Below, piece after piece: positions 4,326 through 20,835 of a DNA stretch of 64,000 nucleotides. The stretch comes from Cryomorphaceae bacterium. GTDB taxonomy: Bacteria; Bacteroidota; Bacteroidia; Flavobacteriales_D; Crocinitomicaceae. Position 1 is the first letter of the stretch. Every line of letters begins with the position of its first letter. The translations under genes and the position numbers were made by a program. The stretch lies in contig JAIXXP010000005.1 of NCBI GenBank assembly GCA_027490665.1, positions 1-64,000 of the forward strand. Direction: 5' to 3'. The notes below the pieces were generated by a model. It searched no databases, was not told the DNA's origin, and was given only the letters and a program-made list of their open reading frames with translations.

Positions 4326-4326
4326 C

Positions 4327-5781
4327 ATGCAAGAAGTAAAAACATATATACAATCATTGTTCTCTGCAAAAGGAATAGAGATTAAACCAAATAGATTAAA
4401 CCAATTTGAGGAGTTTGTTGCATTAGAAGATTCTTTAGCTGCAGTAAAACACATATTTGAAAATCAAAATAGCCTGATGAATAAATGGAAACTAAAAAAT
4501 AGAATTTCTGATATTCTTTCACTACAAATTGTAATACCAAACGGCACAATTGGCAAAAATTATTCAGGTCATATTGATTTTGAAAAACTCAATTTATCAG
4601 ACTTGATTTTTGAACAATTTGAAGGCTTAGAAGAAATCGGTTTATACTTTAACAAAACCAATGATTGCATTGAAGGAATACCAAGCCTGAGTGGTGATTT
4701 GAAATTTACTCTATTATTTAAAGTTAATGGTGAGGATGAAAATGAAGAATTGAATAAAAAAGTAATTCAATTAATAGTTAATCCTGATCCAAAATCCCTT
4801 TGGAAAGATATTCCAAGTGATCCAACAGATCAATTCTGGAAAGAAGATGATGTTTCTATCTCCGATAAAATTGGTGAAAAAAATATTGTTATCTCCTCTA
4901 AAAGAGGTCGTTCACATAAAAATGTTGGGTCATTTAGGGATGATGATTTTGCTTATGCACATTTTACCAAAACTGGATGGTCAATAGTGGCCGTCTCAGA
5001 TGGCGCAGGAAGTTATTCTCTTTCTAGGGTTGGATCACAAATAGCTTGTAATGCTGTGATTGATTTCTTTGAAAACCACGCCGATTCAGAAAAATCTAAA
5101 GAATTTGAGGATAAAATTATTTCTTATAATGAAACAGGAGAGCAGTCTATATTGAAGGAAATAGAAGTGCTAGCTAAACAAAATCTATACAGAGCCACGG
5201 TTTTTGTGCATAACAAGATTAAGGCCGATGCAGAAGAAACATTTAACACTCATCCTGAATTATTCAACAATCCTAAAGCGAAAAGTTACTTGGACTATTA
5301 TCATGCTACTTTCATCTTTGCTCTCTTCAAGAAATATGAATTCGGGTATGTCATTCTTACTTTTGGTGTCGGCGATTGTCCGATAGCAGTGATGAATATA
5401 GAACAAACAGAAACAACATTACTCAATTGGCTTGACGTTGGTGAATTTGGAGGTGGAACTCGATTTATTACACAATCAGACATATTTCATAGTACAGAAC
5501 ACCCAATGGCTACAAGATTTAATTTCACAATTGTTCAAGACTTCTCTTATTTATTTTTAATGACCGATGGAATTTACGATCCTAAATTCGTCGTTGAAGC
5601 TAACCTAGAAAAATCTGAAAAATGGTTGGAATTCATGGAGGATTTAAAAGGAAAAAATGAAGATCATGTCGCTGTTGAATTTAATCCAGAAAATACACAA
5701 ATTGCAGATCAACTTTCTAATTGGATGGACTTTTGGAGCCAAGGCAACCACGATGATAGAACACTTGCAATTGTATATTAA
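4327..5781 (+). CDS. PP2C-type Ser/Thr phosphatase of the Ter module
   Basis: The C-terminal part of this 484-residue protein is a PP2C phosphatase domain. Visible motifs are RGRSHKNVG-x-x-RDD at 193-206, DGAGS at 225-229, GVGD at 347-350, TDG at 413-415 and HDDRTLA near 475-481, which together supply the metal-binding aspartates. The first 185 residues are a separate region. Residues about 65-155 look like an all-beta, perhaps immunoglobulin-like, domain (a pattern of hydrophobic strands ending in IQLIVNPDP). The gene starts 1 base after the VWA-3 stop and is followed after 9 bases by the kinase gene. In the TerY-P triad the phosphatase and kinase are thought to switch the VWA or associated proteins by phosphorylation. 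Confidence 0.9.
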   Translation: MQEVKTYIQSLFSAKGIEIKPNRLNQFEEFVALEDSLAAVKHIFENQNSLMNKWKLKNRISDILSLQIVIPNGTIGKNYSGHIDFEKLNLSDLIFEQFEGLEEIGLYFNKTNDCIEGIPSLSGDLKFTLLFKVNGEDENEELNKKVIQLIVNPDPKSLWKDIPSDPTDQFWKEDDVSISDKIGEKNIVISSKRGRSHKNVGSFRDDDFAYAHFTKTGWSIVAVSDGAGSYSLSRVGSQIACNAVIDFFENHADSEKSKEFEDKIISYNETGEQSILKEIEVLAKQNLYRATVFVHNKIKADAEETFNTHPELFNNPKAKSYLDYYHATFIFALFKKYEFGYVILTFGVGDCPIAVMNIEQTETTLLNWLDVGEFGGGTRFITQSDIFHSTEHPMATRFNFTIVQDFSYLFLMTDGIYDPKFVVEANLEKSEKWLEFMEDLKGKNEDHVAVEFNPENTQIADQLSNWMDFWSQGNHDDRTLAIVY

Positions 5782-5790
5782 ATATCAGAT

Positions 5791-7317
5791 ATGAGCACCA
5801 AAACAGTCACATCCATAATTAACATAAATAAAACATATCAATTTGTTGATAATGGAGAACCAATGCGTGGTGGCATGAAGGATGTGTATTTCAGTCCTGA
5901 CAAATCCTATGTTGTTGCATTTTATCGTGACCCTCAAGATTTTAATTCAAAAGAGCGCTTAAAAAAAATTGCTACCCAGTACTTTGATAGTTTTTTTGTT
6001 CGCGACGCTGTGAGTGGAGCATTTTATAAAGAATTATACAGCTGGCCAACGGATGTAGTCGAATTAGATAAGAAAGTTGGAATTGTGGTGCCCTGCTACA
6101 ATAAGAATTTTTTCTTTAAACAAGGATATGCCACCAATGACTTACTAAAAGGAAAAGAAAAAGAAGGGAAATGGTTTGCGAGTGCAAAATTTAGAGCCAT
6201 CCACTCCAAATCTAAATTACATGAAAGTGAATTAGGCAATTGGCTAAGCTATTTTCAAGTTTGTGTTAATATTGCAAGAGGTGTTAAAAGACTTCATGCG
6301 GCTGGTTTGGCGCATTCTGATTTGTCGTATAAGAACGTATTAATTGACCCAGTAAGTAAATCAGCAGCGATTATCGATATTGATGGTTTGGTAGTCCCTA
6401 ATTTATTCCCTCCTGATGTTATTGGTACTGCCGATTTTATTGCTCCTGAGGTTCTTGCAACAAAGCATATGGGTAAAAATGATCCTAACAGAAAATTACC
6501 CAATCGATTAACAGACCTGCATGCTTTAGCAGTTCTGATTTACATGTATTTGTTGTACAGGCATCCGCTGCGTGGAGGGAATTACTTTGGGCCAATGGAA
6601 ACAGAAAAAGAGGAAGACTTGTTAATGGGTTCTAAATCTTTATTCGTTGAACATCCGACCGATAAGAGTAATCAAAACTTCAAAAGAGAATATGGTGATA
6701 ATTTGCAAAAATTTTCACCTTGGACTGACCTAAATAAGACTCCTTACTCAATAACTGGTCCCTACTTAAAAGAATTATTTGATCAGGCTTTTGTAAAAGG
6801 CTTGCATAACCCAATTGATAGGCCAACAGCAGATGCTTGGGAACAAGCTTTAATTAAAACAAATGATTTAAAACTTCAATGTAGTAATGCTAAATGTGAT
6901 CAAAAATGGTTCATTTACAATAATACAAAAGTTACAAATTGTCCATTTTGCAATACAAAATATAATTTTTCTATACCCGTATTTGACTTCTTTTATCAAT
7001 TCAAAAAAGACGTTTGGAAACCAGAAAATCAAAGACTTGTAATTTACAATAACTCAACATTACATTTCTGGCATTCCGATAAAAATATTGTTCGCAATGA
7101 GCGTTTGACCGATGCTCAAAAGGCACGAGTCGGATACTTCTCATTTCACAACAGTAAATGGGTATTCGTTAATGAAAAATTAACTTCCTTAAAAGATGTT
7201 TCTGAGGGCAAAGACATAGCAATTGGTTCAATGGTAGAAATTACCGACGGCAAAAAACTTCTCCTTTCAAAAGAAGAAGGTGGACGAGTTGTGGTAATAT
7301 CAATAGCAAATAAATAA
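5791..7317 (+). CDS. Ser/Thr protein kinase-like protein with zinc ribbon, Ter module
   Basis: This 508-residue protein has a protein-kinase fold in residues about 20-355. The catalytic loop is HSDLSYKN at 175-182 (the HRD motif reads HSD), the metal motif reads DIDG at 196-199 instead of DFG, and the APE motif is at 218-220. A glycine-containing loop lies near 25-32. The usual VAIK lysine is not obvious, since the matching strand reads VVAFYR. Cys 364, 369, 384 and 387 form a zinc ribbon after the kinase domain. A C-terminal domain of about 100 residues follows. It is the kinase member of the TerY-PP2C-kinase triad. Activity is likely, but the odd lysine position should be kept in mind. Confidence 0.88.
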   Translation: MSTKTVTSIININKTYQFVDNGEPMRGGMKDVYFSPDKSYVVAFYRDPQDFNSKERLKKIATQYFDSFFVRDAVSGAFYKELYSWPTDVVELDKKVGIVVPCYNKNFFFKQGYATNDLLKGKEKEGKWFASAKFRAIHSKSKLHESELGNWLSYFQVCVNIARGVKRLHAAGLAHSDLSYKNVLIDPVSKSAAIIDIDGLVVPNLFPPDVIGTADFIAPEVLATKHMGKNDPNRKLPNRLTDLHALAVLIYMYLLYRHPLRGGNYFGPMETEKEEDLLMGSKSLFVEHPTDKSNQNFKREYGDNLQKFSPWTDLNKTPYSITGPYLKELFDQAFVKGLHNPIDRPTADAWEQALIKTNDLKLQCSNAKCDQKWFIYNNTKVTNCPFCNTKYNFSIPVFDFFYQFKKDVWKPENQRLVIYNNSTLHFWHSDKNIVRNERLTDAQKARVGYFSFHNSKWVFVNEKLTSLKDVSEGKDIAIGSMVEITDGKKLLLSKEEGGRVVVISIANK

Positions 7318-7341
7318 TAAATGTTAAACAATAAATAAAAT

Positions 7342-8121
7342 ATGAATATGCAAGAATTAATTCAACAAATAGTAGACAACCCAGGGGCTTCGTTAGCAAT
7401 AATTGGAAATTTAATTATCATAGAAAGCTTACTTTCTGTAGATAACGCTGCCGTTTTAGCAACAATGGTTATGGATTTACCCGAAAAACAACGTGATAAA
7501 GCCTTGAAATATGGCATAATCGGAGCCTATGTTTTCAGGGGTTTGGCAATGATTTTCGCTGCAATCCTAATTAAAATTTGGTGGTTAAAACCACTTGGAG
7601 GTCTTTATTTACTATACCTAGTATATGATTTCTGGAAAGGGAAACAGACCGAAACTACTGAAGATGATTTAATCGATAAAAAAAGTAATTGGTTATATCG
7701 AGCTACTGTTGGCTCATTGGGTAATTTCTGGGCAACAGTTGCCTTGGTTGAATTAATGGATATGGCATTTTCAATTGACAATGTATTTGCTGCAGTTGCG
7801 TTTACACCTAATATTATCTTAGTTTGTTTTGGCGTTTTTATAGGTATTCTAGCTATGCGATTCATAGCTCAATGGTTTGTAAAATTAATGGGGAAATACG
7901 CGTTCCTAGAAAACGCAGCATTCATAGTCATTGCAATTTTAGGCTTAAAACTTTCCCTCTCTTTATTCGAGCATTATTACCCTGAATCTGAATTGAGCAA
8001 ATTCCTAGGAAGTCATGCCGCAGATATTGGAATTTCAGTTTTAACAGTTGCAATATTCTTTGTTCCTATCATGACAAGTATGTTCTTTAATTTTCCAAAG
8101 AAAAGCGGAATCGAAGAATAA
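7342..8121 (+). CDS. terC: TerC family membrane protein
   Basis: This 259-residue integral membrane protein is a TerC family member with about seven hydrophobic segments. The two family signatures are visible: SVDN at 32-35 and SIDN at 144-147. Both place acidic and amide residues inside membrane helices and are thought to bind or transport metal ions (manganese export in better-studied members). TerC anchors the TerD proteins at the membrane in current models. It is the last gene of the Ter operon, 24 bases after the kinase gene, and is followed by a strong terminator. Confidence 0.93.
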   Translation: MNMQELIQQIVDNPGASLAIIGNLIIIESLLSVDNAAVLATMVMDLPEKQRDKALKYGIIGAYVFRGLAMIFAAILIKIWWLKPLGGLYLLYLVYDFWKGKQTETTEDDLIDKKSNWLYRATVGSLGNFWATVALVELMDMAFSIDNVFAAVAFTPNIILVCFGVFIGILAMRFIAQWFVKLMGKYAFLENAAFIVIAILGLKLSLSLFEHYYPESELSKFLGSHAADIGISVLTVAIFFVPIMTSMFFNFPKKSGIEE

Positions 8122-8143
8122 GATAAACCCAATTAAAGCATTA

Positions 8144-8179
8144 AGGGGAGGTTAACGCCTCCTTTTTTTTTTTTTTTTT
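8144..8179 (+). terminator. Rho-independent terminator after terC
   Basis: A GGAGG/CCTCC stem (8147-8151 with 8158-8162, extended by G-T and A-T pairs) is followed by 17 consecutive T residues. It ends the Ter transcript 22 bases after the terC stop. Confidence 0.9.
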
Positions 8180-8232
8180 AAAAAGTAATTAAGATTTCAC
8201 TTGTAATCTTACTATTAGGCTGTCTTTTAGAT

Positions 8233-8523
8233 ATGCCATATGGATATTTCATGTTAGTGAGATTGGTGGCCACTTGTACCTTCATATTCTTTTCCTACAA
8301 TTCAAAGTTAAAAGGATATGTAGGTGTTGCTTTATTTTATCTGGCGCTAGCGCTGTTATTTCAACCAGTTTTCAAAATTATGTTGGGAAGAATTATTTGG
8401 AATATCGTTGATGTAATTGTGTCCAGCATTCTAATGGTTAATCTTCTTTCAGATTTTAATTCAATTCATAAAATACCTAGATCAATAAATAAAACAATTA
8501 TTTATTTCTTGATGAATATTTAG
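8233..8523 (+). CDS. Small membrane protein, DUF6804-like
   Basis: This 96-residue protein is almost entirely hydrophobic with three likely membrane spans. Its opening MPYGYFMLVR and the NP-less LLFQPVFKI...IWNIVDV pattern recall a widespread small Bacteroidota membrane family (DUF6804), an identification made from memory. It follows the terC terminator, so it is transcribed separately, and the next gene starts 23 bases later. No function is known to me. Confidence 0.72.
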   Translation: MPYGYFMLVRLVATCTFIFFSYNSKLKGYVGVALFYLALALLFQPVFKIMLGRIIWNIVDVIVSSILMVNLLSDFNSIHKIPRSINKTIIYFLMNI

Positions 8524-8546
8524 AACCAGTTTAATTTTATGAGTAA

Positions 8547-9578
8547 ATGAAATATCACATTGAACGAAATAACCAAAGTCATGGGCCGTATGAAATAAAT
8601 ATTCTTAAGAAGTATGTTGAAGATGGATTAATTTTATTGCAAGATAAAACCAAAGATGATTTTGGAAAAGCATCCTGTGTTCGAGATGTATTGAAAAGTA
8701 ACAACTTAAAAGTAAGAGTAAATTCTAACGGAGGACTTTTCAAACAAATTAGCTCTTTTGGATTGAAGTTATTATTGCCAAAAGATTCAATTTCTTTTAA
8801 GAATTTAAAAAACGACAAGCGCCTATTAGTAATAGCCTTAGTGGGATTAGCTCCTGCATTTTTAATATCCTTTACAGGAGCGACGGTTTTTACTTTCTAC
8901 GCTATAGCGCTATACTTCTCTATGATCTGGGGCTTGTTTTATTATAGCGTTTTTAACACCCATCAAGTTTCTGTTAAGAAATCAATATCCCTTTTCTTTC
9001 TTACTCAATTGTTGATTTTCATTCTTGTTGACATTGTGCGAATACCACAAATTCATCCATTATATGCATTGATAAAACCTAATTTAGGTTTTATAGAACA
9101 TTTAATTGGATTTACTTTTGGTGTTGGGGTATTTGAAGAATTCGTGAAACTTCTACCCGTATATCTATTTATTAGAAAATCTAAGGAGCCATTAATCCCA
9201 CAAACAGTTGTTTTCTATGGGTTAATGAGTGGTATTGGGTTTGGCGTTTTCGAAGGAGTTATTTACCAGCTAACAGTTAATACTCAGCTTGATTACAACA
9301 CCTCTTTTTTGATGAATATAGCACGACTAACATCCTTACCATTTTTACATTCTGTGTGGGCTGGTATTAGTGCCTACTTCTTGGCTTTTTCTTTTTTATA
9401 TCCTACAAATAGATATTCTTTATGGTTTTTGGCTATCCTAATACCCGCTGTTTTACATGGGCTTTATGACACTCTTGGATGGTCACTCCCAGGGCTTTTT
9501 GTTTCATACTTGGGTGTAACTCTTTTGGTTATATATTTAAAAAATGCTAAAGATTTTCAAAGTAAAATTGTTAGATAA
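8547..9578 (+). CDS. PrsW-like intramembrane protease with N-terminal GYF_2-like domain
   Basis: The first 55 or so residues of this 343-residue protein (YHIERNNQSHGPYE...) resemble the GYF_2 domain found at the N-terminus of many membrane proteins. From residue 90 there are about seven hydrophobic segments with the PrsW/CPBP-type motifs: Glu 197 and Glu 198 in VFEEFVK, a second FE at 235-236, His 268, and HGLYD at 304-308. These are the expected metal-binding residues of PrsW-type intramembrane proteases, which in Bacillus start the release of a sigma factor from its anti-sigma factor. Its substrate here is unknown. It sits next to a degenerate TerD gene on the same strand, 5 bases apart, which hints at a link with the Ter island. 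Confidence 0.82.
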   Translation: MKYHIERNNQSHGPYEINILKKYVEDGLILLQDKTKDDFGKASCVRDVLKSNNLKVRVNSNGGLFKQISSFGLKLLLPKDSISFKNLKNDKRLLVIALVGLAPAFLISFTGATVFTFYAIALYFSMIWGLFYYSVFNTHQVSVKKSISLFFLTQLLIFILVDIVRIPQIHPLYALIKPNLGFIEHLIGFTFGVGVFEEFVKLLPVYLFIRKSKEPLIPQTVVFYGLMSGIGFGVFEGVIYQLTVNTQLDYNTSFLMNIARLTSLPFLHSVWAGISAYFLAFSFLYPTNRYSLWFLAILIPAVLHGLYDTLGWSLPGLFVSYLGVTLLVIYLKNAKDFQSKIVR

Positions 9579-9583
9579 AGTCC

Positions 9584-10153
9584 ATGAAATTAAGAATTAG
9601 CTTTAACATCGAAACCAAAAAGATTTCAAATCCAACTGTAGTTTCCAAATTATTTGGGAGTCGTAATTGTGAAATTGAACATTTTATTGATTGGGATATT
9701 AGCTTGGGTATTTTAAATAGTGTCGGGAATTTAGTTAGTCCAGATTCCTTTATTTTTTATAACAATTGTAATTATGAAAATGGAACGATTACTCTTCGTT
9801 CAGACACACTTATAAATGTACAATCTCCCGAGTTTGATGAAGAAGTGATTATTGATTTTAGTGAATTATCTATCGAGGCAAATAGTATAGTTTTCTATAT
9901 TTCAAATCATCAAAAGTTTAATTTTGAGATTACCCATATTGATGTCCAGATTGATAGCGTTCCAAAAATATGCGAAAAAGAGAATCAATTTAGAATCACC
10001 AACACTTCAATATGCAATGCGATTGAGCTTTTCAAATTTATTAGAAGCAATCAAAGTTGGACTATAGAAACTGTTAACAATCCCATAATAGAACCAAATG
10101 GTTTGGAGTATATTTTTAATAAGATTACATCAGATAAAAATATTTCGAAGTGA
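9584..10153 (+). CDS. Degenerate TerD-like protein without acidic loops
   Basis: This 189-residue protein has no obvious annotation, but it can be aligned by eye with the TerD copies at 10 and 597 along its whole length. HFIDWDIS stands in place of FDFDLDAS, SPDSFIFYNN in place of AESYFIFYGN, IDFSELSIEANSIVFYIS in place of the DLSK...ILFVVTI strand pair, and FKFIRSNQSWTIETV in place of LYRRDGKWKFEA. The second acidic loop (GDD...DDE) is missing and the first keeps only part of its aspartates, so calcium binding is probably lost or changed. It could be a non-binding partner of the active TerD proteins. The gene forms a pair with the PrsW-like gene, 5 bases upstream. Confidence 0.65.
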   Translation: MKLRISFNIETKKISNPTVVSKLFGSRNCEIEHFIDWDISLGILNSVGNLVSPDSFIFYNNCNYENGTITLRSDTLINVQSPEFDEEVIIDFSELSIEANSIVFYISNHQKFNFEITHIDVQIDSVPKICEKENQFRITNTSICNAIELFKFIRSNQSWTIETVNNPIIEPNGLEYIFNKITSDKNISK

Positions 10154-10269: not shown

Positions 10270-10288
10270 CTATATCAATTCCTGATAC

Positions 10289-11743
10289 ATGAAAACACTA
10301 ATTTCCTGGATTGCCTTCAATAATGACTTTGCGGAGGGGGCTGTGGATGCAACCGGGCCCACCGCGAGTTTTCATAAGTATTTTTATAAGCATGACCGGC
10401 ATATTATTTTGTCGGGGGCGGCGAGTGAGGCTGCGGATAGTCGGACTTTTCATTTGACGAATTACTTGGCGCGGACTTTTGCCGAGCATCAGGTGGAGGT
10501 GCGGTATTTGAATATTGCCGACCCGATAGATCATCAGGAGATTCAGGCGAAGGTGGCGCCGATTTTGGCGGAGTGCAAGGATGACAAGATAGATATTTAT
10601 ATTTCGCCGGGGACGCCGGCTATGCAGGTGGTGTGGTATTTGTGCCATATGTCGCTGGGTTTGCAAACTGCGCTTTATCAGACGCGTGAGGCGAAGTTTT
10701 CGAAACAAAAAGACAAAGACAAGCCGGAGCTCGTGAAGATTGCTTTGGAGAAGTCTTCGCTTCCTGTGACGGCGATGTATCATCAGGAAGAGATCAAGCG
10801 GTCTAGCGGAGATCATTATTTTTTGACGCCTTCGATTGAGAAAGTGTATGGGAGTGCGGCGAAGGTGGCGCAGGTAGATGCCGTGAGTGTGTTGATACTT
10901 GGGGCGAGCGGTACGGGAAAGGAGAATTTGGCGAAGTATATTCATAAGAATTCGGCCCGACAAGACAAACCGTATATTGCCATCAACTGCTCGGCGTTTT
11001 CGGATGGGCTGTTGGAGAGCCGTTTGTTTGGATACAAGAAAGGCGCGTTTACCGGTGCCGATAAAGATACCAGCGGTTTGTTTGAGCAGGCCCATGAAGG
11101 GATCATCTTTTTGGATGAAATTGGAGACATTTCGCCTTACATGCAACAGAGTTTGCTGCGGGTCTTGCAAGAAAAAGAAATCATGCCTTTGGGTGGCAAG
11201 GCCAAAAAAGTGGATGTGCGGGTTATTGCTGCTACCAATCAGAATTTGCCAAAACTCTGCGAAGAAGGGAAGTTCAGGTGGGATTTATATTACCGGCTTT
11301 CCGTTGTGGAGCTCGACCTCCCTACTCTATTGGAGCGCGGCAAGACCGACCTCAAGCTGCTCATGGAGCATTTTCTGAGCACCAAGAAAAAAGAATTGCA
11401 TCGGCCTAAAAAGTTGGTCTTGGACAAAGAAGCCCAGGATATTTTGCTCAACTACACCTACCCTGGCAATGTGCGCGAGCTCGAGAATATCATCTCGCGG
11501 TTATATGTTTTCAACGAAGAACGCATTAGTGCAGACGTACTGCCCAAGCGCCTGAAGCAGTCGAGTACGGAGCAACCCATGCACATGGATTACATCGAAA
11601 AAGAACACATCATTAAAGTCTTGAAACACCACCAAGGCAACCAACGACAAACCGCCATATCTATTGGCTGGGCGCTCAATACCTTGAAAAGCAAGATGGA
11701 GAAGTATGGGGTTGATCCGAGTCGTTATGAAGCTGATTCTTGA
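10289..11743 (+). CDS. Sigma-54-dependent activator with CARF/RtcR-like sensor domain
   Basis: This 484-residue protein has the central AAA+ domain of sigma-54 enhancer-binding proteins: Walker A GASGTGKE at 205-212, the sigma-54 contact loop GAFTGA at 252-257, Walker B FLDEIGD at 274-280, and arginine-finger region residues around 329-336. A Fis-type helix-turn-helix lies at about 448-478. The N-terminal 170 residues are not a response-regulator receiver. They show a Rossmann-like alternation with IYISPGTPAM at 103-112, resembling the ligand-binding CARF/RtcR fold whose known members sense cyclic oligonucleotides or RNA ends. That part is inference. Its likely targets are the divergent promoters at 12286-12499. 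The 3' end overlaps the convergent gene by 19 bases. Confidence 0.88.
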   Translation: MKTLISWIAFNNDFAEGAVDATGPTASFHKYFYKHDRHIILSGAASEAADSRTFHLTNYLARTFAEHQVEVRYLNIADPIDHQEIQAKVAPILAECKDDKIDIYISPGTPAMQVVWYLCHMSLGLQTALYQTREAKFSKQKDKDKPELVKIALEKSSLPVTAMYHQEEIKRSSGDHYFLTPSIEKVYGSAAKVAQVDAVSVLILGASGTGKENLAKYIHKNSARQDKPYIAINCSAFSDGLLESRLFGYKKGAFTGADKDTSGLFEQAHEGIIFLDEIGDISPYMQQSLLRVLQEKEIMPLGGKAKKVDVRVIAATNQNLPKLCEEGKFRWDLYYRLSVVELDLPTLLERGKTDLKLLMEHFLSTKKKELHRPKKLVLDKEAQDILLNYTYPGNVRELENIISRLYVFNEERISADVLPKRLKQSSTEQPMHMDYIEKEHIIKVLKHHQGNQRQTAISIGWALNTLKSKMEKYGVDPSRYEADS

Positions 11744-12285
11744 TCGCGCTGACTCATAAAATCGGCCACTACATCAAACGCATCTTTGCCCGTGTTGTGC
11801 ATGTTATGCGCACAGCGCGACATATCGTTGGCGATGGAATAGTGTTGGTATATCCGGTGTTCGATGAGGGCTGGTTCCCAGAAAAACTCGCGGATGCTGA
11901 CCACAGTTTTGTAGCGCAGAACGTTTCTTTCGCTGTAGTAATAGACATGCCCTTTGTTCAGCAGTGAGTTGAAGACATTAGAAAAACGGACGTATTCGAT
12001 GGGCTCGTCGGTGTCTTGGAGTTGGTAACAATAGGAGTCGAGAATGAAATCAGTGCCATCTTGGTAATAGAAGATGAGGCCACTGCGGGTGTCGTCAAAG
12101 CCAACCTGCCAACGGATCATGTTGTCGGGGTGCCCTACCGTAAACTGGATTTCTTTGTCGGTTAAGTGCGCTTTGATGCGCTCAAAAACGATGCTGTCCA
12201 TTTGTTCGATATCTTGCTTTTGTTTCTTAAAAGCAACGAGTTCTTTATAGAGGTTCCAGAGTTCTTTGGGCGTGTTGTATTTCAT
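11725..12285 (-). CDS. Unknown protein, divergent partner of the sigma-54 locus
   Basis: I do not recognise a family in this 186-residue soluble protein. It has an N-terminal helical, lysine-rich part (residues 1-45), then alternating beta and alpha elements (residues 50-140) that loosely recall the YbjN or secretion-chaperone-like fold, and a Ser/Gln-rich end. No signal peptide or membrane segment is seen. The gene is divergent from the operon that begins at 12500. A near-consensus sigma-54 promoter lies about 28 bases upstream of its start codon, so it should be under the activator encoded convergently next to it. The ATG at 12285 is the only suitable start after that promoter. Confidence 0.72.
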   Translation of the reverse strand: MKYNTPKELWNLYKELVAFKKQKQDIEQMDSIVFERIKAHLTDKEIQFTVGHPDNMIRWQVGFDDTRSGLIFYYQDGTDFILDSYCYQLQDTDEPIEYVRFSNVFNSLLNKGHVYYYSERNVLRYKTVVSIREFFWEPALIEHRIYQHYSIANDMSRCAHNMHNTGKDAFDVVADFMSQRDQESAS

Positions 12286-12312
12286 AGCCTGCGGTTTTGA
12301 TCAGGTCTTTTC

Positions 12313-12328
12313 GACAAGGATTGTGCCA
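12313..12328 (-). promoter_or_regulatory. Sigma-54-like promoter for the gene ending at 11725
   Basis: On the minus strand the sequence reads TGGCACAATCCTTGTC. The -24 part TGGCAC is a perfect match, and the -12 part is TTG with T in place of the invariant C. The GG to -12 spacing is correct. It lies about 28 bases upstream of the ATG at 12285, placing the transcript start about 16 bases before the gene. Confidence 0.65.
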
Positions 12329-12355
12329 TACTTTTTATCGCTTATCCGAAAAGAG

Positions 12356-12445
12356 CTGTTTTTGCAATTTACCTCCATTTTTTGACATATTTTTCATTTT
12401 TTGACACTTTTTGAGCATTTTTTGAACGATTTTACTCGTTTTTGA
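12356..12445 (+). promoter_or_regulatory. Phased upstream repeats, candidate enhancer for the sigma-54 activator
   Basis: CATTTTTTGA occurs exactly at 12376-12385, 12395-12404 and 12416-12425. Weaker versions are at 12356 (CTGTTTTTGCA) and 12437 (CGTTTTTGA). The starts are 20, 19, 21 and 21 bases apart, which is about two helical turns, so all copies face the same side of the DNA. The array lies between the two divergent sigma-54-like promoters, the normal place for activator binding sites. Confidence 0.6.
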
Positions 12446-12448
12446 GTT

Positions 12449-12464
12449 TGGCATACGGATTGAC
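12449..12464 (+). promoter_or_regulatory. Sigma-54-like promoter for the operon starting at 12500
   Basis: The sequence TGGCATACGGATTGAC matches the TGGCAC-N5-TTGCA consensus except for T at the last base of the -24 element and A in place of C at -12. The GG (12450-12451) and the -12 pair (12462-12463) are correctly spaced. The predicted transcript start is near 12475, about 25 bases before the ATG at 12500. Confidence 0.6.
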
Positions 12465-12499
12465 TAAGTGGCAGCAACCAACATAAAACCGCCTCTCCA

Positions 12500-12973
12500 A
12501 TGCTAGCCAAACAACTCCAAATTAGCCAAGACGAACTCAAGAAAAACGAGGACGCCGTCATGGACTTTCAATACGCCTTTCTGACCCAAAACCTGAAAAG
12601 AATTGGTTATTTGCTTTGGCCAAAAGGCACTTTTTTCGGCAAACAAAGCCTCACCTATGCCAAAGGGAAAATCTATGCTCTTTTTCATCAAAACGAACAT
12701 CCAGAGCGCGACTTCGCACATGTCAGCTCCATAGGATACAGCAATGACCACTCACCAGGGCAATTGGTCTTGGAATTTCGCTATCCAATTTTTACCCAAG
12801 ACAACCTCATGAGCTATCCGGACGCAGACGAACTCTTTGGACAAGCACCGCTCAAGGAATACCAAGAAGAGGTGATCCGCCTAGCGCTGACGGTTCAAAA
12901 GGGGAAAATCACCTCCATGAGGACACCCAAGAAAGTCATCAAGAGCCTGCAGAAATATATACATGAAAACTAA
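12500..12973 (+). CDS. Unknown protein, first gene of the sigma-54 operon
   Basis: This 157-residue soluble protein belongs to no family I can name. Its first 65 residues (FQYAFLTQNLKRIGYLLWPKGTFFGK... region) share a pattern with the next gene product: a hydrophobic helix, the L-x-YLL element, then aromatic and charged residues before a second helix. The two are therefore probably distant paralogues. The C-terminal half is beta-rich (LVLEFRYPIF) and ends in a lysine-rich helix. The ATG at 12500 follows a sigma-54-like promoter and a phased repeat array, and the next gene starts 12 bases after its stop, so it leads the operon. Confidence 0.72.
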   Translation: MLAKQLQISQDELKKNEDAVMDFQYAFLTQNLKRIGYLLWPKGTFFGKQSLTYAKGKIYALFHQNEHPERDFAHVSSIGYSNDHSPGQLVLEFRYPIFTQDNLMSYPDADELFGQAPLKEYQEEVIRLALTVQKGKITSMRTPKKVIKSLQKYIHEN

Positions 12974-12985: not shown

Positions 12986-13462
12986 ATGCAACAACAAGAA
13001 CTCACAACAACAAGCCAAGCAATTAGCCGCATTCAGATCACCAACGCCCAAATTGTACGCAAGTGTATCCAAGAAATGAACATAGAGGCCCTTTATTATT
13101 TGCTCGACGTAGAGCGCACCTATCAAGATTGGCAGCGCAACGAGTTTATTCTTAAACTCAAATACGTAATGCGACAATTCAAAGCCGATGGCGACACCTA
13201 CCTCAATGCGGTGCAGGGCAGCTGCGGCGGGTCTTGCTCAAAAGGCCAGAACGGATATCTATTTATTGGTAACAACAGCAAAAACTACATGAATTTGCTT
13301 TTTGTAGAGGAGCAACTCGAGCTTCAAGATTTATATGAGTGTAGCCTGTTCAGGACCAATTTCGAAAACATTGTACTCAACAAACGCTATTACCTCGACC
13401 CAAGTGCTCAGCGCATGGCTGGTTTCTTTGCCGAGTTCAACGCCTCCTTAGACGCCGAATAA
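12986..13462 (+). CDS. Unknown protein with CxxxC motif, second gene of the sigma-54 operon
   Basis: This 158-residue soluble protein resembles the preceding gene product in its N-terminal 70 residues (MNIEALYYLL-D-ERTYQDW pattern). It adds a CGGSC motif (Cys 80 and Cys 84) inside QGSCGGSCSKGQNGYLFIGN, which could bind a metal or be redox active. The C-terminal part is a mix of helix and strand without a recognisable fold. It lies 12 bases after the first gene and 37 bases before the VWA gene, so the three are probably co-transcribed. Function is unknown; a role as an adaptor for the VWA protein is only a guess from position. Confidence 0.72.
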   Translation: MQQQELTTTSQAISRIQITNAQIVRKCIQEMNIEALYYLLDVERTYQDWQRNEFILKLKYVMRQFKADGDTYLNAVQGSCGGSCSKGQNGYLFIGNNSKNYMNLLFVEEQLELQDLYECSLFRTNFENIVLNKRYYLDPSAQRMAGFFAEFNASLDAE

Positions 13463-13499: not shown

Positions 13500-14204
13500 A
13501 TGCGACAGAACATTGTAACTAAATTAAAAAACTTCCTCATGGAAAAACAAACCAACAAAAACGCCAATCAGCGCACCAACAAGAACACCCTTTATCATTT
13601 CATCATTGACCGCAGCGGCTCTATGAGCGGCATGGAGAAGATGGTAATTGACGGCTACAACGAACACGTAGCGAGCATTAAAAATTTGCAACGAACCTAC
13701 CCAGACCAAAAGTTCTTGATGTCGTTAACAGTCTTTGACCACGAAATCGAAACAATAGTGCCTGCAACGCCGATCGATCAACTTCAAGAAATCGGGCAAG
13801 ACGCTTTTATACCGCGCGGATCCACTGCCTTACTCGATGCCATCGGACGCAGCCTCGATCAAATTGAAGAACAATTTGCAAAGGACATCAAAAAGAATAA
13901 AATGAGCGTGGTAATGATCATCATTACCGATGGCGCGGAAAATAGCTCGCACCGCTACAGCTATGAAAGAATTTCTCGACGCATCAAAAAAAGAGATCAC
14001 TCAGACAAATGGACCTTCAGTTTTATAGGTTGTGACTTCAATGCTTTAGAACTCACCGAGCGCCTGAACATTCGCCGCGAAAATGTGCGCAGCTACAACA
14101 AACGCAACTATGCCCAAATGAGTCATTTCATCGACGATTCACTTGCGTTTTACGCCAAATCCAAATCGGAAGGCGACATCAAGAAGCAACTCTTTGATTT
14201 TTAG
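13500..14204 (+). CDS. VWA domain protein A of the sigma-54 locus
   Basis: This 234-residue protein is a single von Willebrand A domain with a complete MIDAS: DRSGS at 37-41, the GST element at 107-109 and TDG at 143-145. It is much closer to the VWA gene at 15308 than to the TerY copies at the left end. The two share LYHF-x-ID-x-SGSM, the GST-LLDA element, the ITDG-x-ENSS segment and NIRREN near the end. There is no signal peptide. A second in-frame ATG at 13539 gives a start more like that of its paralogue and may be the real one. The 3' end overlaps the convergent deacetylase gene by 26 bases. Confidence 0.88.
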   Translation: MRQNIVTKLKNFLMEKQTNKNANQRTNKNTLYHFIIDRSGSMSGMEKMVIDGYNEHVASIKNLQRTYPDQKFLMSLTVFDHEIETIVPATPIDQLQEIGQDAFIPRGSTALLDAIGRSLDQIEEQFAKDIKKNKMSVVMIIITDGAENSSHRYSYERISRRIKKRDHSDKWTFSFIGCDFNALELTERLNIRRENVRSYNKRNYAQMSHFIDDSLAFYAKSKSEGDIKKQLFDF

Positions 14205-15156
14205 GCGGGTGCTGAAAAACAAAAGTTGTATTCACCTGGGTCTGACCACACACTACTTTTGCGATGGTCGCCAAGGAGCTCAAATGTAAATCCAACACCG
14301 CGTTGTAGTTATCGGCGCGGTAGCCACCAAATAAGGCAAGCGTTACAGGTAGCGGCTTGCCTATTTTTTTGGAGATGGCGTTCACCCATTCGGCAAAGAT
14401 TTCAGCGCAAAGCAACCAGTGCTTGGTATCGCAGCCGCCACCGATATCGTCATCGGCATGTGAGTCTGCTCCATGAGCAAAAACAACGTAATGGATCTTG
14501 TCCGCTAAAATGAGTTCTTCAACATGGTTCAACCCATCTTGAAATGATTGAATATAGCTTTCATTATAACCACTTGGGTTTATATTGCATCCTAAAGGAA
14601 TAGCTAAGTTTAATTTTGGACAATATGTTCTAGAGTCTTCTATACTGTTTCCGTAGTGCCCGTCCAAGTCAAAGTAAGCGCCCGACACCCCAAATTCGTC
14701 GTAGAGTTTGAGTGCCGAGATAACCTGCCCAGAGAAGGTGCAAAATCCAGAGCCACGATTCGGTTGCGCATGGTGCATGCCAGATACCGGTGCAAAACAA
14801 ACCGTTTGTGGATGCAGCAGCGCATACTTTTTGGCTTCATAAAGTGCGGCGTTTGTATAGCCCACGCTATACACTAAATTCTTTGACCACGGGAGGGAAT
14901 TGGAACGGTAATTACCGACGCCCTCATAAAAATTGTCAACGTACATTTTGGTGTGCGCAAGTTGAAAATCTGACTTTTTGAAAGGTTCAAACTTGTCTGT
15001 TTTCAGGAACAAAGAACTGTACTTTTTTTCTTTGATGCGCTGCATTAACAAATAAGGCTTGAGCGGTGATTTCGAAAATGAAGCATTTTGAATGTTGTCA
15101 AAACAAACTTGTTGGTCGGTGTAAAACGTTCGGATTTTCTTGCTGCGCTGTTTCAT
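14179..15156 (-). CDS. Histone-deacetylase-fold hydrolase (acetylpolyamine amidohydrolase-like)
   Basis: This 325-residue protein has the arginase/deacetylase fold motifs. SGMHHA at 125-130 holds the catalytic His pair, YFDLDGHYGN at 161-170 gives the metal-binding Asp and His, AHGADSH at 227-233 and DDDIGG at 235-240 supply the second metal Asp, and a GGY element near 284 may hold the catalytic Tyr. It is therefore likely an active zinc deacetylase acting on an acetylated lysine, polyamine or small molecule. It lies in opposite orientation between two paralogous VWA genes, converging on one and diverging from the other. A shared role with the VWA proteins is inference from that arrangement. 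Confidence 0.87.
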   Translation of the reverse strand: MKQRSKKIRTFYTDQQVCFDNIQNASFSKSPLKPYLLMQRIKEKKYSSLFLKTDKFEPFKKSDFQLAHTKMYVDNFYEGVGNYRSNSLPWSKNLVYSVGYTNAALYEAKKYALLHPQTVCFAPVSGMHHAQPNRGSGFCTFSGQVISALKLYDEFGVSGAYFDLDGHYGNSIEDSRTYCPKLNLAIPLGCNINPSGYNESYIQSFQDGLNHVEELILADKIHYVVFAHGADSHADDDIGGGCDTKHWLLCAEIFAEWVNAISKKIGKPLPVTLALFGGYRADNYNAVLDLHLSSLATIAKVVCGQTQVNTTFVFQHPPKNQRVAS

Positions 15157-15307: not shown

Positions 15308-15970
15308 ATGAAAAACAAAACAACACTTTACCACTTCGTGATTGACCAAAGTGGATCTATGGCCGGAATGGAAGCACTCGCAATTGGTGGTTTCAACACC
15401 CAATTACAAACCATTCAAACCCTTCAAAAAGAGAAACCAGCCGAAACATTTTTATGCTCGCTCACGCTTTTTAATGGCGATGTAGTAGATGTGCTGCGCC
15501 AAGCGCCCGTTGAAAAATTAATTGCACTGAGCGATGGTTATTTCAGGCCAAGTGGCTCAACCTCCCTACTCGATGCCCTCGGAAAAAGCATCTTCAACAT
15601 CAAAGAGCAATTCGGAAATGACATCGCCGAAGACAAAATGTCAGTAGTTATGGTGATCATTACAGACGGACACGAAAACAGCTCTAGAATGTACACCTAC
15701 CATGACATTGCGCAGTTAATCAAAACCTTAGACGAGACCGGAAAATGGACATTTAGTTTTCTTGGTGCAGATTTTGATGCCATACATACGTCGCAAATGT
15801 TGAACATCCGCCGAGAAAACGCCATGAGTTACAGCAAAACGAGTTACTCCGAAATGATGTACGACCTCAGCGATTCTATCAAGGCCTACTCCAACAGTAA
15901 GTCGGATGGGAAATTAAAAAAAGACTTACTCGACATCTTTAAAATCAAAGACCGTCGCCAAACAAAATAA
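15308..15970 (+). CDS. VWA domain protein B of the sigma-54 locus
   Basis: This 220-residue VWA protein is a clear paralogue of the one at 13500. It has DQSGS at 13-17, a GSTSLLDA element and ITDGHENSS, so the MIDAS is complete. The C-terminus ends in a basic tail (KIKDRRQTK). There is no signal peptide or membrane segment, so it acts in the cytoplasm as a metal-dependent binding module. The next gene begins 19 bases after its stop. It is separated from VWA A only by the reverse-oriented deacetylase gene, so the two VWA genes may once have been adjacent. Confidence 0.88.
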   Translation: MKNKTTLYHFVIDQSGSMAGMEALAIGGFNTQLQTIQTLQKEKPAETFLCSLTLFNGDVVDVLRQAPVEKLIALSDGYFRPSGSTSLLDALGKSIFNIKEQFGNDIAEDKMSVVMVIITDGHENSSRMYTYHDIAQLIKTLDETGKWTFSFLGADFDAIHTSQMLNIRRENAMSYSKTSYSEMMYDLSDSIKAYSNSKSDGKLKKDLLDIFKIKDRRQTK

Positions 15971-15989
15971 ACTAGAAAAACGATAGCTC

Positions 15990-17120
15990 ATGAAGGTACA
16001 TCTTATCCGATCTGAAGGTTTTGATATCGAAGATTTTAACAATGTTCTGAACTTGTTAAAAGCCACTAAAGGCACCATTGAGTTTGTGCCTTCTGAGCCA
16101 ATTATTTTACCTGAATTTGAAAACTACATCAATTTTGAAGATCTAAAATCTTTCGAGAAAAAGGGAATGCCCCAGTTCAGCATGAACGAATCAATGCGCA
16201 TGGAAAACCGCGTATTTCCAATGAAAACTCCCGTTTTTACTTGGGAACAACTCTTTGGCATATGCAAGGATTTTCGCTCGGACAACAACATCCCCGATGC
16301 CGATCATGTAATGCTACTCACCGAGCAAGCCAACGATTTAAATTGGTTTGGCGCCATTGATGCCAGCATGAAAAACTACTTCATTCATACTGCCGATTGG
16401 GACCATTACTTTCAGAATAATGTTGATGTGCGCTTTCCAATTACCTACGAAATAGTTGTATGGTTGCTGCGGAGTATGATGTTTAAAAATCGCAATGAAA
16501 TTATCGATAACATTCACGAAAATGCGCAAGGTTGCATGATGGATTTTTGTCAGAATAAAAAAGAAATTACCATCAAAATGCGCACTGCAGATTTATGCCC
16601 TTCATGCACGTCGCTCATCACGAAGAAAGACATACGCAAAAACTACCTCAAACAGCTCTTTGACACTATGGAGAGCATCCGTAAAAACTTACTCTTCAGA
16701 CAGCGTTCCGTTTTACTCAATGAGCCCAGCAGATTGGAAATCCGCGGCTATTCTAAAAACATTTTCCTCAGTGACCTCGGCGATTTACAGATCAACCTGA
16801 CACCCAAAGAAAAAACGCTCTATTTGCTTTTTCTCAAGCATCCTGAAGGGATCAATTTGAGTTATTTGATAGACCACAAACTAGAATTGACAGCTTATTA
16901 CTCAATGCTTTCGCGCTCTGGCTCACCAGAACAAGTAGAGACGGTCATCTCTAATATGATCAATTACGAATACGCCAATGACATCAGCATTCAATTTTCA
17001 AGAATCAAAAACAAGTTTGTTGCTGCACTGGGCGAATTTGGTAAGCAATATACCATTGAAAAAGTCGGCGACAAGCACAAAATTGTCCTCAACCGTGAAC
17101 TCGTTCAATTTATCGATTAA
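15990..17120 (+). CDS. Protein with archaemetzincin-like cysteine cluster and winged-helix-like C-terminus
   Basis: This 376-residue protein has no firm family assignment. Residues 175-206 contain IHENAQ followed by GC-x4-C (Cys 182, 187) and later DLCPSC (Cys 203, 206). This arrangement recalls the C-terminal zinc-binding end of archaemetzincin peptidases, but no complete HExxHxxGxxH motif is present, so peptidase activity is doubtful. The C-terminal region (about 262-376) begins with LTPKEKTLYLLFLKHPEGI, a pattern of helices like a winged-helix domain, and ends with strands FGKQYTIEKVGDKHKIVL. It could be an effector or DNA-binding regulator of the locus. It is co-directional with VWA B (19 bases) and the HAD gene (3 bases). 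Confidence 0.68.
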   Translation: MKVHLIRSEGFDIEDFNNVLNLLKATKGTIEFVPSEPIILPEFENYINFEDLKSFEKKGMPQFSMNESMRMENRVFPMKTPVFTWEQLFGICKDFRSDNNIPDADHVMLLTEQANDLNWFGAIDASMKNYFIHTADWDHYFQNNVDVRFPITYEIVVWLLRSMMFKNRNEIIDNIHENAQGCMMDFCQNKKEITIKMRTADLCPSCTSLITKKDIRKNYLKQLFDTMESIRKNLLFRQRSVLLNEPSRLEIRGYSKNIFLSDLGDLQINLTPKEKTLYLLFLKHPEGINLSYLIDHKLELTAYYSMLSRSGSPEQVETVISNMINYEYANDISIQFSRIKNKFVAALGEFGKQYTIEKVGDKHKIVLNRELVQFID

Positions 17121-17123
17121 ACC

Positions 17124-17522
17124 ATGACCATCTACCTTGACTTCGACGGCACAGTTGTAGAACATGCCTATCCTCAAATTGGTGCGCCTAACCCACATGC
17201 CTTGCGCGTTATTGGCAAACTACAAGCCGCTGGGCATCAATTCATTTTAAACACTTACCGAGCCGACCTCAACGACGGCAGTCTAGAGGAGGCATTTGCT
17301 TACCTACTCGCTTCAACAGCAATCAAACCTATTTCAGAACACCTTCCGTTAAAAGTGCAACCTCCAAAATTCGATCTCGATGCGGCTATTTCAAAAAACG
17401 AGCTCTACATCGATGATATTTCGGAAGGCACACCCATGAGGCCTAATAAAGCACTCGAGTATGGCATCATGGTGGATTGGATAGAGCTAGAACGCCAGTT
17501 GATCAATGCCAAAATTTTATGA
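17124..17522 (+). CDS. Small HAD-superfamily phosphatase-like protein
   Basis: This 132-residue protein starts with the HAD motif I, YLDFDGTVV (Asp 6 and Asp 8), and has an LYIDDIS element near residues 94-100 that fits motif IV. A threonine in LNTYRADL around residue 44 could be motif II. It is a minimal, cap-less HAD hydrolase, likely a phosphatase with a small substrate that cannot be predicted. It follows the archaemetzincin-like gene by 3 bases and probably ends that transcript. The next gene starts 7 bases downstream with a signal peptide and belongs to a different function. Confidence 0.78.
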   Translation: MTIYLDFDGTVVEHAYPQIGAPNPHALRVIGKLQAAGHQFILNTYRADLNDGSLEEAFAYLLASTAIKPISEHLPLKVQPPKFDLDAAISKNELYIDDISEGTPMRPNKALEYGIMVDWIELERQLINAKIL

Positions 17523-17529
17523 GTTTAAG

Positions 17530-18525
17530 ATGCGCCTCATCTATTCAATATTTGGTTTACTCTTCATTACAAATCTGCACGCGCAGTACGGCCGCATAGA
17601 CTCACTTGCGCGCAGTTGCCCGGTGGATAGCATGCAATCACTAACGCAAGTAGCAAACTACCTGAAGTCCATCAGCTCGACAGACAAAGAAATTGCACGC
17701 AGTATCTACACCTGGATTTGTGAAAACATACGCTACGACGACAAAGCATTTAACGAAGGGACTACCAGCGCAATGGAGCCTACAGAGATATTAAAAGGCA
17801 AAAAGGCCGTTTGCATTGGATATGCCATTTTATATGCAGAACTTGGCTCTTTATGCGGAATTGTTGCTGAGGTAGTTACTGGATATTCAAAAGGATACGA
17901 CTACATCGAAGGCTACCCTCTTGAAGACCCAGATCATGCCTGGAATGTCGTTTCGATAGACGGAGAATTCTTTCTTCTTGATGCCACATGGGGTGCTGGC
18001 GCTGGTGAAACAAATAAAAAAGGCAAACTAGTATCCAAAAAAGGATTTGACGACCAATGGTTTTTGATGCAACCCGAGCATGCTATTTTTACACACTATG
18101 CTGAATATCTCCCTGGACTTTTCAAATCAATGCCAGCCGTTTCACTGAAAGATTTTGAGCACTTGCCAAATCTAAGGCCGTCAATGTTTACCAAAAACTT
18201 GCTCCAACCTACTGTATTTTTTATGCAGTTGACTACCAATACTTACCTTTTTGCACCTGAGGTTTATGATATCCCTTTTGAAATCGAGCATTCAGAAGTA
18301 CCACATCAATTGGTGCTTAAGCATAAAAAACCTATTCAAATCGAAATCACGACAAACGCAGTTCCAAGCATTTACGTCGTGGATCAAAATGATCAATATA
18401 CAGCATTAAAAAATGATGGTGGTGTTTTTCGCCTCACTTATAAACCAGAGCTCACTGGCGAACTAAAAATTGTGGTTCAAAACGATCAACACTATTACAC
18501 CTTGTATCAATATGAGGTAAGATGA
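17530..18525 (+). CDS. Secreted transglutaminase-like cysteine protease fold protein
   Basis: The start at 17530 gives a signal peptide (MRLIYSIFGLLFITNLHA), better than an upstream codon that would overlap the HAD gene. The protein of about 331 residues has a transglutaminase-like core with the Cys-His-Asp triad: KAVCIGYA, then DHAWNVV, then LLDATWG. The spacing matches the kyphoscoliosis-peptidase type of the superfamily. The C-terminal third is beta-rich and unidentified. It is likely exported to the periplasm, where such enzymes cut or cross-link proteins or peptidoglycan peptides. Confidence 0.85.
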   Translation: MRLIYSIFGLLFITNLHAQYGRIDSLARSCPVDSMQSLTQVANYLKSISSTDKEIARSIYTWICENIRYDDKAFNEGTTSAMEPTEILKGKKAVCIGYAILYAELGSLCGIVAEVVTGYSKGYDYIEGYPLEDPDHAWNVVSIDGEFFLLDATWGAGAGETNKKGKLVSKKGFDDQWFLMQPEHAIFTHYAEYLPGLFKSMPAVSLKDFEHLPNLRPSMFTKNLLQPTVFFMQLTTNTYLFAPEVYDIPFEIEHSEVPHQLVLKHKKPIQIEITTNAVPSIYVVDQNDQYTALKNDGGVFRLTYKPELTGELKIVVQNDQHYYTLYQYEVR

Positions 18526-19555: not shown

Positions 19556-20752
19556 TCAAAAAGATTTACTCAATCGTTGTACCAAATCTTGAATATCCCC
19601 CTTCCTTGCCAACGCATCAACCCATTTACTTAGTATGGCGTCGAAGCCGTAAAACATACCTGCAAGCCCTCCTGTAACCGCTGCAGTTGTGTCGGTGTCG
19701 TGGCCTAAATTAACTGCTTTTAAAACGGCGTCTTTGTAATTATTAGTTGTTAATAAACACCAAATACAGGCCTCAATTGTTTCAATGACGTATCCCCCAC
19801 TCCTTATTTCAGAAAGTGGTAAATCGGTAATGTTGGCTTTGAGTATGCGATCAAAATGCACGATTTCCGAGGGCTCGATACCCATTTCTGCAAAAAAGGA
19901 AGGTAGCATTTTTTGGAGATTTTCGTATATCTCGAACTTACCCCTGCCTTCTATAATTTGCCGAGCAAATTCCAAATAATAGAAACACGCCATTACTGAC
20001 CTGATATGGCCGTGTGTAATAGAAGAAACTTGTTTGGTCCGATTGAAACGTTCTTTGATGGGTAAATCTTTGATGGCAAAAACAAGCGGCAAAATGCGCA
20101 TCAAAGAGCCATTTCCATTGGCATCTTCATCGGTGCCGCCAGCTAACTCGGCCTTAGTTCCGTGTTTGATTCTATAAAGTGCTTCACGTGTACCAATTCC
20201 AATATCAAATACATGGCCGCTTGCCGTCCAGTAGTCTTTGTAGTACCACTTGACAAATGTTTCACCGATTTGATCAATGTCGAAACCCAAGCAGAGTGCC
20301 TCAGCAAGGCAAAATGTGAGCGAGCTGTCATCGGACCACGTTCCGGACGGTAGATTATAGGTGCCAAAACCGCGCATGTCGGTCACCGGATTTTGTTCTA
20401 GGTCCGTACGTCTGGTAAATTCAACTGGTACCCCAAGCGCGTCGCCAACGGCAACGCCAAAGAGGGCTGAGTGGACATGCTGTTCTGAGCTTTGCTTTGA
20501 ATGAAATGTTGAAAATGACGCTTCCTTCACCCCATCTATCCCCTTCGCCAACTCCCAATCCTTTTCAGTTATCGTATATCCTGCATCATGCGTGCAGAGC
20601 CAGATTTCTACTACATTGTAGGCGTTGCGCCAAGTGGGATGGTGATTTTGCTTTTCGGCAAGTGCGGCCACATGTGTCATGAAAGCAAAAGCAGATTTGA
20701 AATCTTGGAATTCAAATTTGCGGTAAAGTTGGTTGTTTTGGGTTTGCCACAT
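19556..20752 (-). CDS. Pterin carbinolamine dehydratase / ADP-ribosylglycohydrolase fusion
   Basis: The start at 20752 (MWQTQNN...) removes a spurious hydrophobic extension. Residues about 10-90 form a pterin-4a-carbinolamine dehydratase domain (FKSAFAFM...EKQNHHPTW...VEIWLCTHDAG...KDWELAKGID) with the catalytic HH pair. From about residue 105 the protein is an ADP-ribosylglycohydrolase (DraG type). It shows GDALGVPVEF, SDDSSLTFCLAEAL, DEDANGNGS and GHDTDTTAAVTGGLAG, which keeps the acidic residues that bind the two magnesium ions. The fusion of a pterin enzyme with an ADP-ribose hydrolase is unusual. The hydrolase half could reverse ADP-ribosylation or cleave ADP-ribose-like compounds. Confidence 0.86.
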   Translation of the reverse strand: MWQTQNNQLYRKFEFQDFKSAFAFMTHVAALAEKQNHHPTWRNAYNVVEIWLCTHDAGYTITEKDWELAKGIDGVKEASFSTFHSKQSSEQHVHSALFGVAVGDALGVPVEFTRRTDLEQNPVTDMRGFGTYNLPSGTWSDDSSLTFCLAEALCLGFDIDQIGETFVKWYYKDYWTASGHVFDIGIGTREALYRIKHGTKAELAGGTDEDANGNGSLMRILPLVFAIKDLPIKERFNRTKQVSSITHGHIRSVMACFYYLEFARQIIEGRGKFEIYENLQKMLPSFFAEMGIEPSEIVHFDRILKANITDLPLSEIRSGGYVIETIEACIWCLLTTNNYKDAVLKAVNLGHDTDTTAAVTGGLAGMFYGFDAILSKWVDALARKGDIQDLVQRLSKSF

Positions 20753-20782
20753 GGAATTATACTTGTTCAGTAAAAATACGGA

Positions 20783-20813
20783 TTTGAATTGTAGAAAAAA
20801 GTATATACTTTTG
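20783..20813 (+). promoter_or_regulatory. Promoter of the mazEF-like module
   Basis: TTTG at 20783-20786 and TACTTTTG at 20806-20813 are separated by 19 bases, matching the Bacteroidota housekeeping promoter TTTG-N19-TAnnTTTG. It lies 22 bases before the ATG at 20836. Confidence 0.75.
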
Positions 20814-20822: not shown

Positions 20823-20835
20823 AAAGCCAATAGAA

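Follow-up and report, generated by a model that had tools for sequence, protein, structure and literature searches.

A candidate sigma-54 enhancer between two divergent promoters, beside the gene of a CARF-type activator, in a Cryomorphaceae bacterium

How can a single regulator serve two transcription units that diverge from one short gap? This question is raised by 214 bp (12286-12499) in a Cryomorphaceae genome, lying between the gene B186 on the minus strand and the gene A157 on the plus strand. The window, i.e. the whole 64-kb stretch of DNA that was analysed, is the start of its contig in a draft genome of 2.79 Mb. An earlier note had described about five repeats in this gap as activator sites, placed between two divergent sigma-54-like promoters. 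From comparison with related genomes we consider it very probable that the gap is a sigma-54 enhancer in which one operator pair serves both promoters under the control of the adjacent CARF-type activator. Most likely, the activator encoded at 10289-11743 would bind the repeats and turn on genes both ways.

The candidate regulator and the site at its own leader are as follows.

10289-11743, plus strand: sigma-54 activator with N-terminal CARF, AAA+ and Fis-type HTH domains (RtcR_PspF2 family), assigned by profile matches and predicted fold
10273-10287, no strand assigned: candidate autoregulatory palindrome TATCAATTCCTGATA, first in the window by operator matrix and present at the same position in most relatives

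The protein matches the PADLOC profile RtcR_PspF2--CARF_AAA_HTH (PDLC01995) over positions 1-480 of 481 (E=1.3e-137) and contains the Pfam domains PF00158, PF25601 and PF02954. Sensor proteins of this family mostly have antiviral genes as neighbours. Pfam RtcR matches all 29 orthologous N-termini, the window's own being just under the cut-off. A usable model of the N-terminal 181 residues (mean pLDDT 79) resembles the CARF structures VC1899, Csm6, Can2 and Csa3 with Z of 11-13.7. The protein falls outside the NCBIfam RtcR equivalog, with 271 bits against a cut-off of 650 bits. A link to rtcBA was dropped because of this score and because no RtcB gene was found (the genome, 92% complete, had no hit to PF01139). 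The genome encodes two other true sigma-54 activators, and RpoN itself is encoded outside this locus (PF04552, E=2.5e-53). The activator is carried by about 30 genomes of the genus and family, plus some distant Bacteroidota.

Directly upstream of the activator lies a Ter-type cluster (1-10153) with TerD, vWA/TerY, PP2C, kinase-like, TerC and PrsW genes; its own promoter may be off the contig. Most relatives have the activator and the A157 gene set near each other without Ter genes. The 3′ ends of the activator gene and of B186 overlap over 19 bases (11725-11743).

In most relatives a palindrome TATCA-W5-TGATA stands about 14 bases 5′ of the activator start codon; it is absent in the loci L073 and L075. 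In the window the corresponding site lies directly 5′ of the ATG at 10289, so that an activator site at the activator's own leader, as in autoregulation, was found here and likewise in most relatives. The leader motif was first spotted by eye in five relatives and then served as the pattern for collecting training sites. The operator matrix was built from 18 distinct leader palindromes of the relatives' activator genes, none of them from the window, and sigma-54 positions play no part when it is applied to the window and to promoter distances. In a scan of all 64 kb this matrix ranked the site at 10275 first (17.4 bits) and a site at 12394, within the repeats, second (11.7 bits). The bare palindrome had 12+12 matches in the whole genome against 8+9 for the control, a count that tells little, the motif being too short by itself.

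What, then, are the repeats? The elements concerned are listed here.

12394-12404, no strand assigned: strong candidate operator TCATTTTTTGA, of the form TCA-N5-TGA (15-mer TTTCATTTTTTGACA, 12392-12406)
12375-12385, no strand assigned: weak candidate partner operator CCATTTTTTGA, with half-site TTTGACAT of 10.6 bits, 19 bp from the strong operator
12405-12425, plus strand: further repeat units CACTTTTTGA (12405) and CATTTTTTGA (12416), poor as operators, identical in the relative L151 and belonging to the phased T-tract array
12356-12446, no strand assigned: phased T-tracts, candidate curved DNA by a Fourier test with run-preserving shuffles, including the two weak copies at 12356 and 12437

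Exact copies of CATTTTTTGA start at 12376, 12395 and 12416 with spacings of 19 and 21 bp, and comparison with relatives supports the proposal that such spacings put sites on one face of the DNA. The two outer units are weak copies (CTGTTTTTGC at 12356, 7/10; CGTTTTTGAG at 12437, 6/10), and a better one had been overlooked: the unit at 12405 matches at 9/10 positions but breaks the 20-bp register. Shuffling the 214-bp gap 20,000 times with dinucleotides preserved never produced three non-overlapping copies of a 10-mer, whichever its sequence, spaced 18-22 bp apart (0 of 20,000). The close-pair pattern of the repeat had no second occurrence in a search of the whole 2.79-Mb genome.

Matrix scoring changed the interpretation of these units. 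Only those at 12376 and 12395 have half-site scores and only 12394-12404 forms a full operator, which corresponds to the middle repeat shifted left by one base; the 12416 unit and both weak units have no operator score. The idea of five equal operators was dropped after this scoring, which leaves about two. The predicted operator is thus the palindrome TCA-N5-TGA of the relatives-derived matrix, rather than the direct repeat CATTTTTTGA that had been proposed as the activator site. The 12394 site is weakish beside the leader site of the window, 11.7 versus 17.4 bits.

Two candidate promoters flank the operators.

12449-12464, plus strand: predicted sigma-54 -24/-12 promoter of the A157 operon, TGGCATACGGATTGAC, ranked first in the window, conserved upstream of A157, predicted start about 12475
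12313-12328, minus strand: predicted sigma-54 -24/-12 promoter of B186, TGGCACAATCCTTGTC, ranked third, kept in L068 and L151 at 76 and 75 bp from the operator, predicted start about 12302

The textbook sigma-54 consensus with up to two mismatches had 76 matches in the window versus 71.5 expected, i.e. it occurs at chance level, and therefore a promoter matrix from relatives was needed. With this relatives-only matrix, 12449(+) and 12328(-) took ranks 1 and 3, and both divergent elements are present where the earlier note had placed them. Their -24 and -12 parts have the fixed spacing of such promoters, TGGCAT-N5-TTG at 12449 and TGGCAC-N5-TTG at 12328. The base after TTG is A or T in the window versus the classical C, and C, A or T in relatives; the rightward -12 region reads TTGAC, not the classical TTGC. 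The second-ranked sigma-54-like site, TGGCACGAAAATTGTC at 35724-35739 (+), has no CARF-activator operator nearby among the top-scoring sites and is probably served by another activator.

How constant is the geometry of operator and promoter across the relatives? Two arrangements are found: in type I, which is that of the window, activator and A157 share a strand and A157 follows downstream, and in type II A157 is divergent from the activator. The best operator is 55/56 or 75/76 bp from the TGG in 33 of 34 promoters taken from across the phylum, the relaxed sigma-54 sites of L023, L084 and L098 having been accepted once the pattern was known. The relatives are mutually non-independent, and the distances were therefore tested by similarity cluster, where the rule held in 5 of 6 (P ~3e-7). 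The exception, L097, has its operator at 86 and another site at 66, positions shifted outward by one turn of the helix.

The 14 type I promoters can be aligned, and in each of them the operator, which resembles TTTTCA-N5-TGAYA, stands 55 or 56 bp before TGGCAY-N5-TTG; one of the 14, L099, has no linkage to the activator. In 10 of these 14 gaps the runner-up site is found upstream of the best one at a distance of exactly 19 bp, and its sequence is kept as TTTGAYA. In type II the leader palindrome itself stands 75 or 76 bp before the promoter, and several type II loci and loci linked to restriction-modification (R-M) genes have, besides the strong site, a weaker one at a distance of 20 bp. In two distant R-M-linked relatives, with relaxed -24/-12 matching, operators lie at 76 and 56 (L098) and at 75 and 55 bp (L023). 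By this comparison types I and II would share two operator positions, at about 56 and 76 bp, with the strong and weak sites exchanged. In the window the rightward promoter has the strong operator at 55 bp and the weak one at 74 bp, and the leftward promoter (12328) has the weak one at 57 bp and the strong one at 76 bp.

The repeat core (12370-12430) is 95% identical to that of L151 over 61 bp, and outside the core identity is 59-60% for the leaders, 71% for the left spacer and about 61% for the 5′ end of A157. The earlier note had made conservation of the repeats in relatives with the same genes the test of its reading, and they are conserved. L151 itself (genome G405, G405:C33, 1020-1150) has a near-identical enhancer array, and no CARF activator was found in this 99%-complete assembly. 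The contig ends about 430 bp beyond B186, and an assembly gap is a possible reason for the missing gene. In the genome G389, A157 with its operator-promoter (L099, G389:C13) and the activator (G389:C4) are on different contigs, which indicates that enhancer-A157 and activator co-occur without close linkage. Linkage to defence genes was found in L097, L098 and L023, in which type I R-M genes adjoin an activator of this kind and such palindromes. This agrees with the report of RtcR-like proteins near R-M systems by Makarova et al. 2014 (PMC4012209) and with the occurrence of RtcR homologs in the vicinity of CoCoNuT systems (PMC11090510).

The predicted target genes and their neighbours in the window are the following.

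11725-12285, minus strand: B186, orphan protein with no convincing family match
12500-12973, plus strand: A157, first gene of the rightward operon, predicted fold NTF2/SnoaL-like
12986-13462, plus strand: A158, orphan, next operon gene
13500-14204, plus strand: vWA protein, next operon gene
14179-15156, opposite (minus) strand: HDAC-like gene between target-region genes
15308-15970, plus strand: vWA protein, conserved target-region gene
15990-17120, plus strand: 376-aa orphan, conserved target-region gene
17124-17522, plus strand: HAD-like protein, conserved target-region gene
17506-18525, plus strand: transglutaminase-like protein, conserved target-region gene

The NTF2/SnoaL-like fold of A157 (Z up to 9.7) says little on function. 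The same gene set as at 15308-18525 is found near A157 in relatives, and these genes are presumably co-transcribed. No recognised defence gene was found in the target operon of the window with PADLOC profiles. Residues 216-365 of the 376-aa protein have a weak PADLOC CARF5 match (E=5e-4); this protein could be a second sensor. Further on, one ORF at 19556-20851 (minus strand) unites a pterin-4a-carbinolamine dehydratase (residues 33-107) with an ADP-ribosylglycohydrolase (129-406), which is an unusual pairing.

The slot of B186 varies. Among the relatives compared, B186 with its promoter is present only in the window, L068 and L151; elsewhere the slot is empty or is taken by a Fic-domain gene that lacks a strong sigma-54 site. 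In L071 it holds a 187-aa protein with a Fic domain, and L070 and L077 are similar. In L069 (3226-8528) it is occupied by an unrelated cassette of four genes, the first of which encodes a T5orf172/MUG113 domain. On the same side L069 has a sigma-54-like site, at 76 bp, that faces this cassette, although the first ORF begins about 400 bp further on.

Could the repeats be something else? They may mainly be a curved-DNA element, the 20-bp repeat of CATTTTTTGA being a by-product and the activator binding only one palindrome; we regard this as a serious possibility, although the less probable one. The T-tracts of the window have a period of 10.0 bp (0 of 500 run-preserving shuffles), and phasing near 10 bp has P<0.05 in 11 of the 14 type I gaps, window included, so that the 20-bp repeat is partly a T-tract rhythm of 10 bp. 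Such phasing explains why the poor-operator units at 12405 and 12416 keep the rhythm, the former at half spacing. The regularity of the 12416 unit and of the two weak units (12437 has a poor operator score as well) fits phased T-tracts better than operators, and two HU-type genes are present in the genome. The phased T-tracts probably reflect curved DNA between the sites. However, a partner 19 bp away that is kept both in position and as TTTGAYA in 10 of 14 relatives speaks for a second operator, as does the retention of the 20-bp pair in a different sequence context by the R-M-linked relatives. Curvature thus complements the enhancer reading rather than replaces it. That the repeats arose by chance or slippage in T-rich low-complexity intergenic DNA is scarcely credible: the core is 52% T and triple 10-mers occurred in 195 of 20,000 shuffles of its 100 bp, but the observed spacing of three non-overlapping copies (18-22 bp) occurred in only 7 of 20,000, and the conservation of the core and a promoter distance fixed in 14 loci disfavour it.

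Two more doubts concern the partners of the enhancer. The rightward promoter may be its only real target, with the leftward element fortuitous or decayed and B186 expressed otherwise, which is rather unlikely in our estimate. The narrow distribution of B186 and its promoter, and the state of the slot in other relatives, speak in its favour. Yet the leftward element is kept in all three loci with 88-100% identity to the window, versus 54-71% for spacer and leader, and its 75/76-bp spacing is that of nearly all divergent-type relatives; both L151 (75) and L068 (76) keep B186. The minus promoter is a local addition, found in the window and in two closely related loci that carry B186 as well. As for the regulator, it is very improbable that a different protein binds the palindrome. 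Either of the two other sigma-54 activators in the genome might do so, and in G405 the array is retained although no CARF activator was detected. But the motif was derived from leaders of CARF activator genes and tracks the activator across the phylum, and with the sole exception of G405 the operator-promoter pattern in a real A157 context is restricted to genomes that carry this activator. Moreover, relatives that have the motif retain the recognition-helix region NTLxxK(M/I)xKY, and this region is altered in L096, where the motif is missing.

We therefore return to the enhancer with an operator pair. An activator site between divergent sigma-54 promoters is supported by the comparison, so that the compact two-way switch of the earlier note stands, with about two operators instead of five. 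Two-way use appears to be a local elaboration of a conserved one-way enhancer, since the leftward promoter is restricted to few genomes. In the proposed mechanism the activator would bind tandem operators 19 bp apart, the full one at 12394-12404 and the weaker one at 12375-12385. The AAA+ ring would be released once the CARF domain binds its ligand, which, if RtcR is a guide, may be a nucleotide or a signal from damaged RNA. The intervening DNA, curved by phased T-tracts and perhaps aided by HU/IHF-like proteins, would loop, so that one operator pair contacts sigma-54 RNA polymerase at both 12449 (A157 operon) and 12328 (B186). Both promoters would then be used and both operons switched on. 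The palindrome at 10275-10285, 5′ of the activator start codon, probably serves self-repression.

How does this scheme compare with known systems? RtcR of Escherichia coli and Salmonella, which controls rtcBA, is likewise a CARF-AAA+-HTH activator acting at a sigma-54 promoter with an upstream activation sequence. Its CARF domain normally represses, and a nucleic-acid signal relieves the repression (PMC9650030, PMC7790460); the RtcR site of Salmonella was given as not known in a 2016 review (PMC4987338). In contrast to rtcBA, no RtcB gene was found here, the targets are unrelated, and two divergent promoters share the sites. The RtcR_PspF2/RtcR-like activators associated with R-M systems agree in the full-length family match, and distant orthologs stand beside type I R-M operons (PMC4012209), whereas the target here is an NTF2-like/vWA/HDAC-like/transglutaminase-like set beside a Ter cluster. 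In the literature searched we found no operator or spacing rule for the RtcR_PspF2 family. RtcR homologs associated with CoCoNuT systems, too, are sigma-54 activators of the CARF type, for which induction of defence genes has been predicted (PMC11090510); among the proteins that we tested, none was recognised as a CoCoNuT component.

Two systems resemble the locus in layout. PspF of E. coli (pspA/pspF) uses two activating sites upstream of a sigma-54 promoter, and in divergent-type relatives of the window the sites overlap the activator's own leader, as in PspF self-repression (PMC3709507). However, PspF is without a CARF domain, the activator leader of the window has a separate palindrome, and its enhancer is placed 3′ of the activator gene, with a transcription unit other than the activator's on either side. 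ZraR (zraP/zraSR) also drives divergent sigma-54 promoters with one activator (PMC4987338), but it is a two-component response regulator in its sensing, has no CARF domain and controls other genes.

Each component is of a known kind; in the literature searched we met no description of the operator code, of the fixed geometry or of the payload. CARF-type sigma-54 activators of the RtcR_PspF group have so far been known by domain architecture and neighbours. A defined palindrome with a two-position geometry would make the targets of these activators predictable from sequence across Bacteroidota, and a small two-way reporter could then be used to test which signal the CARF domain senses. A new payload comes from the window: an operon adjoining a Ter-type cluster. 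Tentatively, and with somewhat less than even confidence, we suggest that the family shares a portable enhancer cassette, i.e. a palindrome pair with fixed 56/76-bp geometry that can be read in either or both directions and carries interchangeable payload operons under a nucleotide-type alarm. If so, its payloads would include type I R-M systems, the NTF2-like/vWA/HDAC-like operon and small single genes such as B186, and a nucleotide-type alarm would switch on interchangeable defence or stress modules.
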